NCBI GenBank assembly: GCA_905181865.1
Contig: CAJIZG010000001.1
Location: 682,001-746,000 of the forward strand
DNA length: 64,000 nucleotides
Source of the DNA: Urechidicola croceus
GTDB lineage: Bacteria > Bacteroidota > Bacteroidia > Flavobacteriales > Flavobacteriaceae
Reading direction: 5' to 3'
The translations under genes were made by a program, and so were the position numbers. The notes under the pieces were generated by a model. The model was not told the DNA's origin, ran no database searches, and saw nothing but the letters and a program-made list of their open reading frames with translations. This document shows, one piece after another, positions 10,541 through 19,493 of the stretch (positions are counted from its first letter, which is position 1; every line of letters starts with the position of its first letter).

Positions 10541-11326
10541 TTACCTCAATTTCTTTATAAACTCCGTACAAGAAAATCCTGGATTCTCAGTTTTCATAAA
10601 ATTTTCTCCTATTAAAAAGCCTTGAAAACCGTATTCTTTCAACCCAATAATCGTTCTAGGATCGCTAATTCCGCTTTCTGACACTTTTATACAGGTATCA
10701 GGAATTTGTGCCGCTAATGCAATAGAATGTTCTAAATCAACTTCAAAATTTTTCAAATTTCGATTATTGATTCCGATTATTTTATTGTCTAAATCTATCT
10801 TATCTAATTCTTCTTGACTATGTACCTCATACAAAACATCCAATCCTAAATCTTCGGCCAAATTACCAAATTGCTTTAACTCTTGCTTTGATAAATAAGC
10901 CGCGATTAACAAAATTACATCCGCACCAATAGCTTTGGCTTCTACAATTTGAAACCCATCTACAATAAAATCCTTTCTTAAAATTGGTTTTGAATTGTTG
11001 ATTTCTCTTGCTTGAACTAAATCTAATAAAGTACCTCCAAAAAATTCTTTGTCTGTTAAAATTGATTGAGCAGAAACTCCTGCTCCCAAGTAACCTTCTG
11101 TAACTTCTTGAATGGTCGCGGTATCATTAATAATTCCTTTAGATGGAGATTGACGCTTAAATTCAGCAATAATTCCGGATCCTTTCGGATCTAATAATTC
11201 TCTCTTTAAAGAAATCGGAGTCCTCTTAAAACCTGGACTTTTAACCAAAGTGCTTACTTCAATCTCTGTTTTCAACTGAGCAACCTCTTGCTTTTTGTGT
11301 GCAACTATTTTCTCTAAAATATTCAT
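10541..11326 (-). CDS. trpC: Indole-3-glycerol phosphate synthase
   Basis: IIAEFKRQSPSKG, ILRKDFIVD, GINNRNL, SESGI. Confidence 0.97.
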   Translation of the reverse strand: MNILEKIVAHKKQEVAQLKTEIEVSTLVKSPGFKRTPISLKRELLDPKGSGIIAEFKRQSPSKGIINDTATIQEVTEGYLGAGVSAQSILTDKEFFGGTLLDLVQAREINNSKPILRKDFIVDGFQIVEAKAIGADVILLIAAYLSKQELKQFGNLAEDLGLDVLYEVHSQEELDKIDLDNKIIGINNRNLKNFEVDLEHSIALAAQIPDTCIKVSESGISDPRTIIGLKEYGFQGFLIGENFMKTENPGFSCTEFIKKLR

Positions 11327-11343
11327 TCTTTCAATCTAATTTC

Positions 11344-11411
11344 GTCAAACTGAACTTATTTCAGTTTCTCATTATAATTATGATGCCATGCTGAAATAAA
11401 TTCAGAATGAC
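11344..11411. repeat. Palindromic repeat in trpD-trpC gap
   Basis: GTCAAACTGAACTTATTTCAG...ATGCTGAAATAAATTCAGAATGAC. Confidence 0.65.
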
Positions 11412-11414
11412 GCT

Positions 11415-12401
11415 TTAATTTGTTAATCTATTCAAACACGCTTTCGCTTTCAATCCAAATAATGAATTCTTCGCAGATTCAAATGCACCTTCAAATGATA
11501 TTGATTCATCAACTATCTGGAGTGCAATGGCGGCATTTGTCAACACTATATTATTCTGAGCATCCGTTCCTTTTCCGTTAATTATGGTTTCAAATATTTT
11601 AGCGGCTTCCTCGACAGAACTTCCTCCATAGACTTCATTTTGTTGCACTGTTTTTTGTCCTAAATCTTCTGGCATGATTAATTGTTCACCATTTCTTGTA
11701 AACAACTTAAAGCCTCCAGTCAATGAAATCTCGTCATATCCATCTAAGGCATGAACCACACCATAATTTGTATCCTCTTCTTGTAAAATATAATTATACA
11801 ATCGCGCTATTTCTAAATTAAACGTTCCTAACAATTGATTTTTAGGTGAACTTGGATTTACCAAAGGTCCCAACATATTAAAGAACGTTTTTAATGCCAA
11901 CGCTTTTCGCGTTGGTCCAACAGCTTTCATTGCTGGATGAAAAAATGGCGCATGTAAAAAACAAATATTCGCTTTGTCTAAATGTCTTTTTAAAGTGGCT
12001 TCATCATTTGTAAATTCATATCCAAAATGTTGCAACATATCAGAAGAACCTGATTGAGAAGAAACACTGTAGTTTCCATGTTTCGCAACTTTCTGCCCTG
12101 TGCCGGCAACAACAAAAGATGTCATTGTTGAAATGTTAAACGTATCTTTTCCATCACCACCAGTCCCAACAATATCAACCGTATTAAAGTCCGATAAATC
12201 AACTTTTAAAGACAATTCATTCAGTGCATTTCTAAAGCCGCCTAATTCATCTGCCGTAATGGGACGCATCATAAAAACAGTCATAAAGGATGCTAAATGC
12301 ACATCATTATACTGTTCTTTTGAGATATTTATTAAAATCTCTTTAGCCTCCGATCGACTTAATCGTTTGTGCTGATATAATTCGTTTAATATTTGTTTCA
12401 T
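11415..12401 (-). CDS. trpD: Anthranilate phosphoribosyltransferase
   Basis: VDIVGTGGDGKDTFNIST, KHGNYSVSSQSGSSD. Confidence 0.97.
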   Translation of the reverse strand: MKQILNELYQHKRLSRSEAKEILINISKEQYNDVHLASFMTVFMMRPITADELGGFRNALNELSLKVDLSDFNTVDIVGTGGDGKDTFNISTMTSFVVAGTGQKVAKHGNYSVSSQSGSSDMLQHFGYEFTNDEATLKRHLDKANICFLHAPFFHPAMKAVGPTRKALALKTFFNMLGPLVNPSSPKNQLLGTFNLEIARLYNYILQEEDTNYGVVHALDGYDEISLTGGFKLFTRNGEQLIMPEDLGQKTVQQNEVYGGSSVEEAAKIFETIINGKGTDAQNNIVLTNAAIALQIVDESISFEGAFESAKNSLFGLKAKACLNRLTN

Positions 12402-12443
12402 TAATCCAGTATTACCGTCATATAAACTTCAGAAGTATCTTAA

Positions 12444-12530
12444 AGATTCTTTGCTCCGTTCAGAATGACACTTTTTTAATATTTACTTCTACTCACTTCG
12501 ACTCTACGCATTGAACACCGCACAGAATGA
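12444..12530. repeat. Degenerate repeat fragments in trpG-trpD gap
   Basis: GATTCTTTGCTCCGTTCAGAATGAC and ACTCACTTCGACTC...CAGAATGA. Confidence 0.45.
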
Positions 12531-12547
12531 AACTATTCATTCTTAAT

Positions 12548-13123
12548 TTATTGATTCGCTTCAATAAAATTACGAACCATATCTTCACCTAGATCCGTTA
12601 AAATCGATTCTGGATGGAATTGAACCGCACTAATATTGAATGCTGTATGCTGAATTGCCATAATCCCACCATCTTCATCCTCTGCTGTTATTTTTAGCAC
12701 ACTTGGGAAATCTTCTTTCGAAGCAATCCAAGAATGATATCTTGCTGCAGGAAATTTAGATGGCAAGTTTTGAAACAATACATTTTCTTGATCGATAACA
12801 GTCATTTCTGTTGCTACACCATGAAATACCTCGTCCATATTAATAATGCTTCCTCCGAACACTTCAGTAATAGCTTGCAACCCTAAACAAACTCCAAAAA
12901 TTGGTTTCTTACCAGCATATTCCTTAACGACTGCTTTTAAAATTCCTGCTTCATCTGGAATACCAGGTCCAGGAGACAACATGATGATATCATAGTTTCC
13001 AACATCGGCAATCGAAATTTCGTCATTTCTAAATACAGTTGGAAAAATACCTGTGATTTTCTCAACCATGTGTACCAAATTGTAAGTAAACGAATCGTAA
13101 TTATCTAAAATTAATATCTTCAT
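12548..13123 (-). CDS. trpG: Anthranilate synthase glutamine amidotransferase component
   Basis: DNYDSFTYNLV, LSPGPGIP, GVCLGLQ, FHPES. Confidence 0.96.
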   Translation of the reverse strand: MKILILDNYDSFTYNLVHMVEKITGIFPTVFRNDEISIADVGNYDIIMLSPGPGIPDEAGILKAVVKEYAGKKPIFGVCLGLQAITEVFGGSIINMDEVFHGVATEMTVIDQENVLFQNLPSKFPAARYHSWIASKEDFPSVLKITAEDEDGGIMAIQHTAFNISAVQFHPESILTDLGEDMVRNFIEANQ

Positions 13124-13125
13124 CT

Positions 13126-14517
13126 TTATATGTTTTCAGCTAAAAGCAATGCTTTTTTCAAGGCTGCTAGTTTATTATTTACTTCCTGTAATTCCTTTTG
13201 TTCCTCACTATGAAAAACAATTCCTGCTCCTGCTTGATAATACAAGGTATTATTTTTACTTACAAATGATCGGATCGCAATGGCCAAATTTATAGAACCA
13301 TCTAGTCCTATAATTCCAACAGCTCCTCCGTAAAACCCCCGAGATTGATTCTCATATTTATCGATTAACTGCATGGCTTTGTATTTTGGAGCACCACTCA
13401 AAGTTCCTGCTGGAAATGTATCCCCAACAATGGAGATTGGATTTCCTTTTATGGTTCCTTTTACGGTGGAAACCAAATGAATAACATGACTAAAATATTG
13501 TACTTCTTTAAACACCTCTACATTCACATGATCGGCGTGTTTACTCAAATCATTTCTAGCCAAATCAACCAACATTACATGCTCCGCCGTTTCTTTTTTA
13601 TCTTCAGATAATTTCTTACCCAGTTTGATGTCTTCAGCCATATCACCCGTTCTTCTAAAAGTACCCGCAATAGGATTTATGGTTGCTTTTCCTGCTGAAA
13701 TTTTAATTTGTGCCTCTGGAGAAGACCCCATCAACTTAAAACTTCCATAGTCGAAATAAAACAAATATGGCGAAGGATTGATTGATCGTAACGCTCTATA
13801 CACGTTAAATTCATCTCCTTTAAATGATTGCTGAAATTGTCTTGACAACACCAATTGAAATACATCTCCACGCTTACAGTGCGCTTTTGCTTTTCGAACA
13901 TACTCCACAAAATCTTCATTTGTACAGTTAGAAGTTTCATCTCCATCTATTTCAAAATCTTGTGTATTGAAGGCCTGAGCATCAATAATTGTCTCGATTT
14001 CATTAATTCTTGCTTCAGTTCCTTCTTCAATATTTTCAAGCAATGTCATTTCATCATTAAAATGATTGATGGCAATAATGAAACGATAAAAACTATATTG
14101 TAATAACGGAATAGATGAAGGTGACGTGGTGTTTTCAAAAACTATATTTTCAAAATACTGCACACTATCATAGGTCGAATAACCATATAATCCATTAAAC
14201 GACTTAAGAGCAGGATCACACTCTAAATCTATAGAACTTGAATATTTTTGAAACAATTTATTAAAATCCTTATCGATCTTTTGCTCATCAACCTTCACTC
14301 CTTTTTGGTGTAAAGATAATTTATGATCTTGAGTTTTAATGGTCACAACAGGCTCCATACATATAAAAGAGAAGCTCTCTTCCTTACTATGATAATTTGA
14401 ACTCTCCAGTAAAAGCGTATTTGCATATTTATCACGCAGCCTTAAATATAATCCGACTGGTGTAACAGTATCTGCAATTTTCTTTTTAGAGGCAGTATTA
14501 AATGTTAGTTTTTTCAT
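13126..14517 (-). CDS. trpE: Anthranilate synthase component I
   Basis: GDVFQLVLSRQF, GSSPE, PIAGTFRRT, AGAGIVFHSE; first gene of trp operon. Confidence 0.96.
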   Translation of the reverse strand: MKKLTFNTASKKKIADTVTPVGLYLRLRDKYANTLLLESSNYHSKEESFSFICMEPVVTIKTQDHKLSLHQKGVKVDEQKIDKDFNKLFQKYSSSIDLECDPALKSFNGLYGYSTYDSVQYFENIVFENTTSPSSIPLLQYSFYRFIIAINHFNDEMTLLENIEEGTEARINEIETIIDAQAFNTQDFEIDGDETSNCTNEDFVEYVRKAKAHCKRGDVFQLVLSRQFQQSFKGDEFNVYRALRSINPSPYLFYFDYGSFKLMGSSPEAQIKISAGKATINPIAGTFRRTGDMAEDIKLGKKLSEDKKETAEHVMLVDLARNDLSKHADHVNVEVFKEVQYFSHVIHLVSTVKGTIKGNPISIVGDTFPAGTLSGAPKYKAMQLIDKYENQSRGFYGGAVGIIGLDGSINLAIAIRSFVSKNNTLYYQAGAGIVFHSEEQKELQEVNNKLAALKKALLLAENI

Positions 14518-14530
14518 ATCTTTTAATAAA

Positions 14531-14558
14531 AAAAGGCTTATCGTGAGATAAGCCTTTT
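14531..14558 (-). terminator. trp attenuator terminator hairpin between leader peptide and trpE
   Basis: Perfect 12-bp stem AAAAGGCTTATC/GATAAGCCTTTT, 4-nt loop, followed on minus strand by a run of T. Confidence 0.88.
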
Positions 14559-14599
14559 TGATTTTATGTTTTAAATATCATATAGTCGTTATTCCCCAC

Positions 14600-14647
14600 T
14601 TATTGTTTAAGAGAATTCCACCAATTGATATTTTGAGTCGTTGCCAT
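14600..14647 (-). CDS. trp operon leader peptide MATTQNINWWNSLKQ
   Basis: ATG GCA ACG ACT CAA AAT ATC AAT TGG TGG AAT TCT CTT AAA CAA TAA on minus strand; tandem Trp codons; between promoter and terminator upstream of trpE. Confidence 0.85.
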   Translation of the reverse strand: MATTQNINWWNSLKQ

Positions 14648-14666
14648 TTTTTGTTCTAATATGATA

Positions 14667-14696
14667 CAAATGTATGATAGTTTTTAAATATATCAA
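14667..14696 (-). promoter_or_regulatory. Bacteroidetes-type promoter of trp operon leader
   Basis: TTG-N19-TACATTTG on minus strand (CAA at 14694-14696, CAAATGTA at 14667-14674). Confidence 0.75.
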
Positions 14697-14760
14697 ATAA
14701 ATAAGCTCTTATTTATTAAATAATATTTATTTAAAACCTACGCATAAGATTTAGCACAAA

Positions 14761-17700
14761 CTATCTCATAATTCTCACATTCATCTCTTCCACTTTTTTA
14801 TCAGATAATTGAGATGGTGATCCAAATAATAAATCTTCACTTGTTCCTGTTTTTGGGAAAGCCATCACTTCTCTAATTGAGGCTTTTTTCTCCAAAATCA
14901 TCATTAAACGATCTACACCCCAAGCTATCCCTCCGTGTGGCGGTGCTCCATAATGGAATGCTTTGTACATGGTTCCCACACTTTTCATCATTGCCTCTTT
15001 ATCGTAACCCATATTTTTATAGGTCGCCTCCAATATTTCCGGCTTATGGGCTCTCACAGATCCACCACCAATTTCATAACCATTCAATATCAAATCATAT
15101 TGCTGGGCAGTGATAGTGCCTATTTCATCCTCCTTACCATTCATATGTTTGTCCAAATCGTAAATCGCAGGCATAGAAAACGGATTGTGCGTAAACGTCC
15201 ATCTACCCTCATCTGTTTTTTCAAACATTGGAAAATCTACCACCCAAGCAGGATGTAGTTCCTTTGGATTTATCAATTTCAACATCGCTCCCATTTCCTG
15301 ACGAACAGCGTCCAACGCTTTATTTGCAGTCGCATAATTTGCCGCTGAGAAGAATACAATATCTCCAACCTCAGCATTCGCAGCTGCTATTATTCCAGCA
15401 GCGATTTCTTCACCCAAGAATTTAATAATTGGAGACTGTAAATCATTTTCATTTACAATAATATATGCTAATCCACCTAAGCCATGATCCTGTGCAATTG
15501 ATGTCAATTTCTCAATCTGACCTTTTGACATTCTCTTTTTTCCTTGTTCTTCAGAAGACACTTTAATGCACTTCACAATACCTCCGTCTTCAATAGGTTT
15601 ACTAAAAACCTGGAAGGTTGTATCTTTTACAATTTCTGTAATGTCTTGCATTTGTAATCCAAAGCGCAAATCTGGACGGTCACATCCATACTTATCCATC
15701 GCTTCTTTGTAGGTAATTACTTCGAATGGTTTTAAGATCCATTTCTTACCATATATTTTTCGAACAATTTCATTGAACATATTCGTGTTCAAATCAATAA
15801 TCTGTTGCATACTTGCGTATGCCATTTCGATATCTAACTGTGTGAATTCTGGCTGACGATCTCCACGAGAATCTTCATCTCTAAAACAGCGTGCAATCTG
15901 AAAATACTTTTCAAAACCACCTACCATCAACATTTGTTTAAATTGCTGCGGTGCCTGTGGTAACGTATAAAATGAACCCGCTTGTTTGCGTGTTGGAACA
16001 ATAAACTCTCTTGCTCCTTCATCTGTTCCTGCAGTTAAAATTGGCGTTTCAATCTCTAGAAATTCTTGTGTGTCTAAAATATCTCGCATCAACTTAATTA
16101 CCTTATGACGATTTACAACTGCTCTGCGCACATCATCATTTCTGTGATCTAAATATTTGTATTGAAAACGTATATTCTCATTGGTTCTCGTCGCTCTTTT
16201 AATTTCAAAAGGCAGTGTTTTAGACAAGTTTAAAATCTCTAATTCTGAAGTTTCTAACTCAATTTTTCCAGAACGTAATCCTGAATTGTAATCATCTTTT
16301 TTACGTTGGACAACCACTCCTGTTACAGAAATTACAGATTCTGGCTTTAACTTCACTAATTCATCTAAATTCGGAAATGACTCGCGACTTAACCGTACCT
16401 GAAAAATTTCATTGCTGGAATCACGTAAATCAATAAAAATTAATTCTCCATGATCTCGAACACTCGACACCCAACCCGATAAACTTACTGTTTCAGCTAT
16501 AGTATCTTCACGTAATTGAGAAATTACATGGGTTCTATATTCATCTTTTATAATGATAGGAATTTCAGGTAGCGTTTCCTCCTCATTAATTGCTGGTTGT
16601 TTACTGTTCGTTGTTTGTTGTCCTTCAACTTTTATTGAACTTTCAACTTTTAACTCAGAACTTTGAACCCCACTTAAAATTCCTTCTCTAATCACTTTTC
16701 CTGAAGCACCTTTACCAATAATAGCAATAACTTTACCTACGAGAATTCCTGCTTTCCCTTGATTTCCCGCCTTGATTTCGTTTGCTACAACTTCATTCTC
16801 TAAAATCACCTTTTGAATAGCGTCCTTAATCTGATCTTCAGAAATCGTATGATCTGCAAAGTATTTTTTATAATCGAAAGTAGGATCAGTTAGTAACGAT
16901 TTGATTCCATTTTGAACCAATACTACTGTTACCTTTTCTTCTTTAAACATTGAAAATATTTCAACAAAATCATCAATATTCACAATACGGCTATAGTCTT
17001 CTGGCTTTATATTATTCGATAAAGCTTTGGCAACAAACAAGGGATCTTTTACAACTTTATTAATGGCCGTAAATGTAGTAGAGCGCAATGAATCTGCTGT
17101 AAAGAATTTTGCGTCTTGTGGCAAAACACCTCCATTAATTAAAATAGATTCAACTGCATAAGGAAGTAAACTCACATCTACTTTTATAGTATCTACTACT
17201 TCTTTAATATTTACAAAAGGTAAATCTGGTTCAGAAATAAAACGATAATCTGCTTCGAATTCCTTTTTACGCATGGTTTTGGTTTGCTTTAAATCAGCAT
17301 CCCAAAGCACGGTCGTTTGATCTGGTCTAAACTCTTTGTGTTCTATATAATAATTGAACTGTTTCTCTATTTCTTCTTTTAAAGCCTCTACCATAAACTT
17401 GAATGAGTTCAAGTTTTTAATCTCTGTACGAGGATTTAATTCGCATGTGTTTTTTTTACGCAGTGACACCGAAACATCTGACTTGAACTCACCCTTTTCT
17501 AGGTTCGCCTCTGATATTTTTAGATTCTGAACAATACGTTGAATATACTGCGCATACGTTGAAGCATCTTCTATATGACGAATACAAGGTTCTGTAACAA
17601 TTTCAATCAACGGAACACCTGCCTTATTAAAATCAACCAATGAAACTTTCTTTTCATGCATCAATTTTGCAGCATCTTCTTCAATATGAACTTGTGTCAA

Positions 17701-18093
17701 GTTCACTGTAAATTGCGAACCATCATTGCGATAACAAGATACTTGTCCGTCTGGAATTATCGGATTATGAAATTGTGTGATCTGAATATTCTTTGGATTG
17801 TCAGGATATTCATAATGTTTTCTATCCCAAGAGATTAACTCGTTTTTAAAAGTAGATGCTACCGCTTTTCCAAAATAAATTGCCTTGATAATCGCCTCTT
17901 TATTAAGAGATGGCAATACGCCCATTTGTCCTGTACATACAGAACATATATTCTCATTCGGTTTTTCTATTTCTTGATTTGGACAAGAACAAAACAACTT
18001 GGTTTTAGTATTTAATCGAACATGTGTTTCTAGTCCAATAACCAATTCTAATTCGTGGGCTTTTAAGGCCGCGTCTAATTGTTCCAGTTCCAT
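14761..18093 (-). CDS. gatB/aspS: Fused aspartyl/glutamyl-tRNA amidotransferase subunit B and aspartyl-tRNA synthetase
   Basis: N-terminal half: VIGLETHVRLNTKTKLFC, GVPLIEIVTEP, C-terminal YqeY-like tail. C-terminal half: SGWVSSVRDHG, FLEIETPILTAGTDEGAREF, GIAWGVDRLMM. A single uninterrupted 1110-codon frame. Confidence 0.95.
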   Translation of the reverse strand: MELEQLDAALKAHELELVIGLETHVRLNTKTKLFCSCPNQEIEKPNENICSVCTGQMGVLPSLNKEAIIKAIYFGKAVASTFKNELISWDRKHYEYPDNPKNIQITQFHNPIIPDGQVSCYRNDGSQFTVNLTQVHIEEDAAKLMHEKKVSLVDFNKAGVPLIEIVTEPCIRHIEDASTYAQYIQRIVQNLKISEANLEKGEFKSDVSVSLRKKNTCELNPRTEIKNLNSFKFMVEALKEEIEKQFNYYIEHKEFRPDQTTVLWDADLKQTKTMRKKEFEADYRFISEPDLPFVNIKEVVDTIKVDVSLLPYAVESILINGGVLPQDAKFFTADSLRSTTFTAINKVVKDPLFVAKALSNNIKPEDYSRIVNIDDFVEIFSMFKEEKVTVVLVQNGIKSLLTDPTFDYKKYFADHTISEDQIKDAIQKVILENEVVANEIKAGNQGKAGILVGKVIAIIGKGASGKVIREGILSGVQSSELKVESSIKVEGQQTTNSKQPAINEEETLPEIPIIIKDEYRTHVISQLREDTIAETVSLSGWVSSVRDHGELIFIDLRDSSNEIFQVRLSRESFPNLDELVKLKPESVISVTGVVVQRKKDDYNSGLRSGKIELETSELEILNLSKTLPFEIKRATRTNENIRFQYKYLDHRNDDVRRAVVNRHKVIKLMRDILDTQEFLEIETPILTAGTDEGAREFIVPTRKQAGSFYTLPQAPQQFKQMLMVGGFEKYFQIARCFRDEDSRGDRQPEFTQLDIEMAYASMQQIIDLNTNMFNEIVRKIYGKKWILKPFEVITYKEAMDKYGCDRPDLRFGLQMQDITEIVKDTTFQVFSKPIEDGGIVKCIKVSSEEQGKKRMSKGQIEKLTSIAQDHGLGGLAYIIVNENDLQSPIIKFLGEEIAAGIIAAANAEVGDIVFFSAANYATANKALDAVRQEMGAMLKLINPKELHPAWVVDFPMFEKTDEGRWTFTHNPFSMPAIYDLDKHMNGKEDEIGTITAQQYDLILNGYEIGGGSVRAHKPEILEATYKNMGYDKEAMMKSVGTMYKAFHYGAPPHGGIAWGVDRLMMILEKKASIREVMAFPKTGTSEDLLFGSPSQLSDKKVEEMNVRIMR

Positions 18094-19493
18094 TATATCG
18101 TATCTTTTAAGAAGTTAGCAAACTTCAAAACGAGTTCCTCATTGTTTTTTGCTGCAGTAACCTGCAATCCTGTAACGGTTCCTTGAGGAACTGTCAAGGT
18201 TGGTAATTGTCCTAAACTAAATCCTACAGTATAGGCATCAGACAAATACATGGCATGCGGATCTTTTAAACTCTCTCCTATTTTTGGAGGAGGACTTGGT
18301 GTAACAGGTGATAAAATAATATCTACCTCCTTAAAATCTGTATCAAAATTTGTAGAAATTTGATCTCTTAGTGTTAAGCCCTTCAAATAAATATCATCAG
18401 AAAAACCTTGAGATAACACTTGATTTCCACCAACTATTCTGCGCTTTGACTCTTCTGAAAAACTTTCAGATCGCGTGGTCGCATAGGTATCAATTAAATT
18501 CTCCCCTTCAATACGATTTCCATAGTTTGAACCATCTAACCTAGATAAGTTGGATGCTGTTTCTGCCATTGCCAAGGTGTAATAAGTAGAAACTAACGTA
18601 TCTCCTTTAAAAAAATCCAATTCCTTTACTTCTATTCCTTGTGCCTTTATCTTTTCTATCGACGCAAAGAAATCAGCCTTAACTGCAGCATCAATTGCAT
18701 CCCCTTCTATAAAATTTTTAAAATACCCTACCTTCGTTCCACTTGCGTCCTTTGCAATTTCTTGCTCACTAATTTCTGTAGATAAAATAGTTGTTTGATC
18801 TTTACTATCTTTTCCACTCATCGCATTCAACACAATGCGAATATCTTCAACAGACTTCGCCAATGGTCCTACACAATCTGTAGAAGAAGCGTATGCCATT
18901 AATCCGAAACGTGAAATACGTCCGTACGTTGGTTTAAATCCGTAAATTTTATTGTATCCTGCTGGCTGACGAATAGATCCTCCTGTATCACCTCCAATAG
19001 AAAACACCGTATAATCTTTGGCTACATTCACCGCTGATCCTCCACTAGAACCGCCACTAACGAATGCTGGATTGATTGCATTTTTAACAGGGCCAAAAAT
19101 AGTATTCTCACTAGACGAACCATGTCCAAAACTATCACAATTTTCTTTTACTAAGGGAATAGCACCTACATCCAATAATTTTTGAATGGCCGTTGCGGTA
19201 TAAGGCGACTTGTAATTTTTTAACATATCAGAAGAGGCAGTCGTATACGTGCCTTGCACCATATACACATCTTTAATTCCAAATGGAATTCCTTCTAATA
19301 ATCCGATTTTCTCACCATTGTTTATTTTGGCATCTACCTTTGCCGCTAAATCTATTGCTGTTTCCTCTAATAAAGAGTTTACAGAATTATAGGCATTCGC
19401 TTTTAGTAATTCTAATCGTTCTTGCACTAGTGAAGTACAAGTAATTTGTTTAGACACGAGTTGCTCGTGTATCTTTTTTATCTGTGACTCCAT
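18093..19493 (-). CDS. gatA: Asp-tRNA(Asn)/Glu-tRNA(Gln) amidotransferase subunit A
   Basis: Amidase signature GIPFGIKD, SGGSSGGSAV, GGDTGGSIRQPA. Confidence 0.96.
   Translation of the reverse strand: MESQIKKIHEQLVSKQITCTSLVQERLELLKANAYNSVNSLLEETAIDLAAKVDAKINNGEKIGLLEGIPFGIKDVYMVQGTYTTASSDMLKNYKSPYTATAIQKLLDVGAIPLVKENCDSFGHGSSSENTIFGPVKNAINPAFVSGGSSGGSAVNVAKDYTVFSIGGDTGGSIRQPAGYNKIYGFKPTYGRISRFGLMAYASSTDCVGPLAKSVEDIRIVLNAMSGKDSKDQTTILSTEISEQEIAKDASGTKVGYFKNFIEGDAIDAAVKADFFASIEKIKAQGIEVKELDFFKGDTLVSTYYTLAMAETASNLSRLDGSNYGNRIEGENLIDTYATTRSESFSEESKRRIVGGNQVLSQGFSDDIYLKGLTLRDQISTNFDTDFKEVDIILSPVTPSPPPKIGESLKDPHAMYLSDAYTVGFSLGQLPTLTVPQGTVTGLQVTAAKNNEELVLKFANFLKDTI

Follow-up and report, generated by a model that had tools for sequence, protein, structure and literature searches.

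Immediately upstream of trpE on the minus strand, the window (the whole 64,000-nucleotide stretch of Urechidicola croceus DNA analyzed here) carries what is very probably a ribosome-mediated transcription attenuator of the trp operon. We put the probability of this reading, which draws on the sequence, its conservation, covarying base pairs, and spacing, at roughly nine in ten. An earlier note on this DNA had proposed the same interpretation, and it is now supported by conserved Trp codons, a competing hairpin, an antiterminator, a terminator, and covarying pairs across the phylum. Apparently new are the base pairing by which the trp genes would be switched on and its fixed 18-base distance from the Trp codons.

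Anatomy of the trpE leader

Read directly on the minus strand, the elements follow one another in the order given by the earlier note, i.e., a promoter, a 15-amino-acid leader with tandem Trp codons, a 40-nt spacer, a terminator, and trpE:

14667-14696, minus strand: promoter of the Bacteroidota type, TTG-N19-TACATTTG (sequence; TAnnTTTG in relatives; -7 register per PMC6847099)
14600-14647, minus strand: leader peptide ORF MATTQNINWWNSLKQ, ATG at 14647, TAA at 14602-14600 (sequence; WW/WWW ORF conserved before trpE)
14618-14623, minus strand: tandem Trp codons TGGTGG, presumed stall site, three codons in most relatives (sequence)
14573-14633, minus strand: competing leader hairpin (regions 1:2), with the Trp codons in one arm and the antiterminator strand sequestered (MFE fold; RF01692 structure; z -10.7)
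14594-14599, minus strand: putative antiterminator 5' strand GUGGGG, 18 nt past the last Trp codon and immediately 3' of the leader stop (comparative pairing)
14543-14548, minus strand: putative antiterminator 3' strand UCUCAC, made up of all 4 nt of the terminator loop and 2 nt of the 5' arm (comparative pairing)
14528-14559, minus strand: intrinsic terminator, 13-bp stem, TCAC loop, U-run (sequence, folding)
13126-14517, minus strand: trpE, ATG at 14517, first gene of trpEGDCFBA (7716-14517; gene calls)
14547-14670, minus strand: match to Rfam RF01692 Bacteroid-trp, model 1-131, 45.2 bits, cut-off 49 (Rfam covariance model)

Within the promoter, TTG lies at 14696-14694 and is followed, after a 19-nt spacer, by TACATTTG at 14674-14667; a TAnnTTTG element is present at most 75 nt upstream in 77 of 114 leaders. 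The promoter register of F. johnsoniae, which gives the position of the -7 element (PMC6847099), would place the transcription start near 14662. In agreement with the earlier note, no Shine-Dalgarno-like sequence precedes the leader ORF on the minus strand upstream of the ATG at 14647. An A is found at -3 of this ATG, a base that favors initiation in Bacteroidota (PMC6847099). The terminator hairpin, AAAAAGGCTTATC(TCAC)GATAAGCCTTTTT, occupies 14559-14530, and its T-run reaches 14528; hairpin and T-run had been correctly recognized, the stem being 13 bp long rather than the 12 bp given. After trpE come trpG, trpD, trpC, trpF, trpB, and trpA, the last ending at 7716.

The hairpin sits between an upstream gene and trpE, all in the same direction, and could in principle be a mere terminator of the upstream gatA-gatB::aspS genes, with the trpE promoter behind the hairpin and the WW ORF arising by chance. 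This we regard as highly improbable, since both a promoter and the WW ORF lie between the end of the upstream gene and the hairpin, the T-run ends only about 10 nt before the trpE ATG, and leader and terminator are conserved beside trpE in relatives without the gene fusion upstream.

The upstream gene (14761-18093, minus strand) encodes a 1,110-amino-acid fusion of GatB amidotransferase domains with a complete aspartyl-tRNA synthetase, and a GatA-like amidase gene adjoins it (18093-19493, minus strand). Full-length GatB-AspRS fusions occur in some relatives only (G006, G015, and G019; split over contigs in G005), usually near trp. An additional, stand-alone AspRS (39% identical) is encoded on contig C5 of the window's genome. 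Together, the fusion and the GatA-like gene look like an accessory tRNA-dependent amidation module.

Relationship to known trp leaders

At Rfam's own cut-offs, the scan gave no match at the window's leader. When hits were instead selected by E-value, the sequence aligned to the full length of RF01692 Bacteroid-trp, the "Bacteroidete tryptophan peptide leader RNA" (14670-14547; 45.2 bits, E 2.6e-4), including the leader hairpin, which minimum-free-energy folding placed independently at 14633-14573; the score does not reach the gathering cut-off of 49 bits. The setting is that of the family, upstream of Bacteroidota tryptophan biosynthesis genes and with Trp codons. Of 14 genomes of the genus, 10 give a match at E <= 1e-3 and four exceed the cut-off, the orthologous leaders in four congeners scoring 49.7 to 55.7 bits. 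The window's leader is a sub-threshold relative of RF01692 members, and its kind and clade are already known. This answers a question left by the earlier note, i.e., whether the leader had been described for this clade: it has, as Bacteroid-trp (PMC2864571, PMC6414381).

The Bacteroid-trp motif comes from Weinberg et al. 2010 (PMC2864571). For Flavobacterium psychrophilum, passages in the main text of two reports place it upstream of the trp operon (PMC6414381) and present clues of leader-peptide attenuation at amino acid operons, with structured 5' elements at pheA and hisG (PMC9723704); these passages give neither an antiterminator nor a spacing. RF01692 and the window's leader share the phylum, the place before trp genes, the Trp-codon leader, and the leader hairpin. 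They differ in that the Rfam model ends in the terminator 5' arm, without the terminator and without the antiterminator pairing found here. No description of the antiterminator or its spacing was found in the accessible literature, most subscription papers and all supplements being beyond reach, and both are apparently undescribed.

The leader also has the features of trpL-type attenuators. A short ORF with tandem Trp codons precedes an intrinsic terminator and a biosynthetic operon, and a leader hairpin (1:2) competes with the antiterminator. Comparatively, an antiterminator that excludes the terminator lies just beyond the position of a stalled ribosome (z -10.5, +18 nt), the window taken alone being not above chance. 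Escherichia coli trpL (RF00513) likewise has tandem Trp codons, 1:2, 2:3, and 3:4 pairings, and an antiterminator strand near the Trp codons (+14 versus +18 here). In contrast to trpL, the window's leader has a Bacteroidota promoter and no Shine-Dalgarno sequence, and the Flavobacteriaceae antiterminator would capture the terminator loop, not a long 5' arm. The enterobacterial model RF00513 Trp_leader gave no match in 14400-14800 even at E <= 10, and no T-box riboswitch was matched in the window at Rfam cut-offs or in 14400-14800 at E <= 10.

Conservation of the Trp leader across Bacteroidota

ATG-initiated ORFs of at most 45 amino acids with WW were present in 109 of 118 Bacteroidota trpE upstream regions versus 24 of 2,360 dinucleotide shuffles (1%), so that a WW ORF upstream of trpE occurs more often than by chance. 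A WW or WWW leader precedes all 41 trpE genes from the window's genome and its Flavobacteriales relatives, and a comparison of relatives' trpE upstream regions, a check of the kind proposed in the earlier note, bore out the conservation of the WW codons and, by the test of own against mismatched strands described below, the covariation of the hairpin pairs. In the wider sample, 80 named genomes and MAGs were drawn by TrpE profile; among named relatives, Tenacibaculum soleae has the closest TrpE (82%). WW-type leaders were found in Flavobacteriia, Bacteroidia, Chitinophagia, Sphingobacteriia, Cytophagia, and Saprospiria, with the first Trp mostly at codon 9 and a leader length of mostly 16 to 20 codons. 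The distance from terminator to trpE is not conserved (10 to 211 nt across leaders), which rules out translational control by occlusion of the trpE start.

Some trpE genes are preceded by more than one leader. Two trp attenuators in tandem, each comprising a WWW leader and a terminator, lie upstream of trpE in L018 (positions 100-387) and L019; the L018 leaders are MQKINTIWWWQSKL followed by MLNNKINNWWWPVLTQYAGQSCYNII. In L054, L061, L063, and L074 (Mariniphaga, Draconibacterium, and Prolixibacteraceae), a second, different type of leader containing INTIWLPWWGLL is found 240 to 390 nt upstream of trpE, about 150 to 200 nt before the usual WWW leader, with its own candidate terminator and antiterminator.

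The window's own genome has comparable leaders on contig C4, i.e., a His-run leader, MNFNRRHHHHFTLTFQVS, with a terminator before hisG (L124:1186-1310) and a Phe-run leader, MKLQYTWFFNYFFFYFFSEK, with a terminator before pheA (L125:1351-1485). The 23 hisG leaders found have HHH or longer runs, with the antiterminator at +13 (quartiles 12 and 13), and share the design of the trp leaders. The pheA leaders do so less sharply; their Phe/Tyr runs are diffuse and the spacing is uninformative.

Antiterminator pairing and competing hairpin

Judged from comparative pairing, the conserved antiterminator strand is GUGAGA (14599-14594, where the window has GUGGGG), and its partner is UCUCAC of the terminator loop (14548-14543). 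Within the window's genus, the predicted pairing is GUGAGA::UCUCAC; Flavobacterium and others have UCGUGA(A)::(U)UCACGA, L016 has GCGAG::CUCGC, L018 has UGCGGGA::UUCCGCA, and L038 has GAGAAGCG::UGCUUCUC. Of the 39 leaders of the CGTGA type, 36 show full pairing of CGTGA to the loop region of the terminator, and in Chitinophagaceae and Sphingobacterium CGGGG-type strands pair with the terminator 5' arm.

The evidence for the pairing comes from 57 nonredundant leaders (<75% alike) in which the post-Trp segment and the terminator top were picked independently of each other. Duplexes between a leader's own strands averaged -13.8 kcal/mol versus -10.1 kcal/mol for mismatched strands (z -10.5; 0 of 20,000 permutations). 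The leader hairpin (regions 1:2), competitor for the antiterminator strand, gave z -10.7 in the same comparison of own and mismatched strands; neither z value is an exact probability because the sampled leaders are related. This test was used instead of column-based pair counts because the MAFFT alignment A2 places the GUGAGA and CGUGA cores out of register by 2 nt. The automatic choice of terminator was wrong in a few leaders (e.g., L017 and L115), and L115 was left out.

A different antiterminator had been put forward as a weak candidate, ATAAGT pairing with GCTTAT. Its six pairs can form in the window, yet the candidate was rejected: 6 of 18 close leaders lose pairs with no compensating change, and none of the 39 CGTGA-type leaders pairs fully.

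In the window, GUGGGG::UCUCAC forms all six standard pairs, two of them G-U. The duplex alone (-6.7 kcal/mol) is weaker than those of the congeners and not above shuffles (P = 0.41), so that the case for it rests on the relatives. The strand reads GUGAGA in 13 of the 17 relatives compared and GUGAGG in two others, and where the window has WW, the sampled congeners carry WWW. These differences, the duplex no better than shuffles, and the Rfam score below the cut-off would fit a decayed attenuator, i.e., an ancestral switch intact in the relatives that here lost one Trp codon, had GUGAGA weakened to GUGGGG, and became a mostly constitutive partial terminator. We consider such decay unlikely: both changes in GUGGGG keep standard (G-U) pairs, WW is enough in E. 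coli and is also the run length in 13 of the 57 nonredundant leaders, and the terminator, spacing, and trp genes are intact.

A fixed distance from the Trp codons

The best antiterminator helix begins at +18 from the end of the last Trp codon (quartiles 17 and 19; MAD 1 nt; nonredundant set), compared with an MAD of 8 nt when its start is measured from the stop codon. It starts within +12 to +21 for 81% of own strands versus 43% of mismatched and 19% of shuffled strands. The window's strand is at exactly +18; E. coli trpL, whose sequence was checked, gave +14 by the same method. As far as the sequences can tell, the position of the antiterminator is thus fixed relative to the last Trp codon and independent of the stop codon.

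A ribosome covers about 10 nt beyond its A-site codon. With this footprint, a ribosome stalled at the Trp codons would leave the antiterminator strand free, and one at least three codons further on would cover it. Counting against the model, the leader stop lies >40 nt past the Trp codons in some families, and a ribosome at so distant a stop would already have moved clear of the antiterminator strand.

Part of the conservation could stem from a second role, with the leader transcript (as a small RNA) or the leader peptide acting in trans. A precedent is peTrpL, the leader peptide of the trp genes in Sinorhizobium meliloti (PMC7298713), and termination in the leader would release a distinct RNA about 135 nt long. 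Such an additional function appears improbable here, because outside the Trp run the peptide varies freely between clades while the pairs and spacing are kept, as expected of a switch acting in cis.

Folding states and proposed switch

Folded without a ribosome, the RNA forms the leader hairpin plus the terminator. With a ribosome mask on the Trp codons, GUGGG::CUCAC forms ahead of synthesis of the 3' arm (-5.1 kcal/mol); with the mask at the stop codon, there is no competitor (-0.7 kcal/mol) and the terminator forms. The finished terminator, at about -16 kcal/mol, is far stabler than the antiterminator, so antitermination must be kinetic, decided during RNA synthesis.

The attenuator we propose would work as follows. 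RNA polymerase would start near 14662 and a ribosome would initiate at the leader ORF. With ample Trp-tRNA, the ribosome would clear both Trp codons and cover GUGGGG just past the stop codon, leaving UCUCAC free; the hairpin at 14559-14530 would then form and transcription would end before trpE. With Trp-tRNA in short supply, the ribosome would stall on TGGTGG and open the leader hairpin (14633-14573), exposing GUGGGG 18 nt downstream. The exposed strand would capture nascent UCUCAC before the 3' arm exists, and polymerase would continue into trpEGDCFBA. If no ribosome were present, GUGGGG would stay hidden in the leader hairpin and termination would result. The transcription start, leader translation, stalling, response to Trp, and kinetic order of folding are all inferred.

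More tentatively, and with slightly more doubt than confidence, we suggest that attenuators lacking Shine-Dalgarno sequences (trp, his, and phe) operate phylum-wide in Bacteroidota on a fixed ruler (18 nt for Trp, 13 for His, any stop position), and that in Flavobacteriaceae the switch is a purely kinetic capture of the loop of a far stabler terminator before its 3' arm is made, which would need a ribosome closely coupled to RNA polymerase.

Significance

These results settle the leader as real and as a member of a catalogued family that Rfam detects incompletely, as the genus illustrates. The pairing and spacing amount to a specific model, open to experiment, of how ribosomes would mediate attenuation in a phylum that initiates translation without Shine-Dalgarno sequences. 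Since the proposed switch would work only if the ribosome closely trails RNA polymerase, the leader would allow transcription-translation coupling in Bacteroidota to be tested directly.
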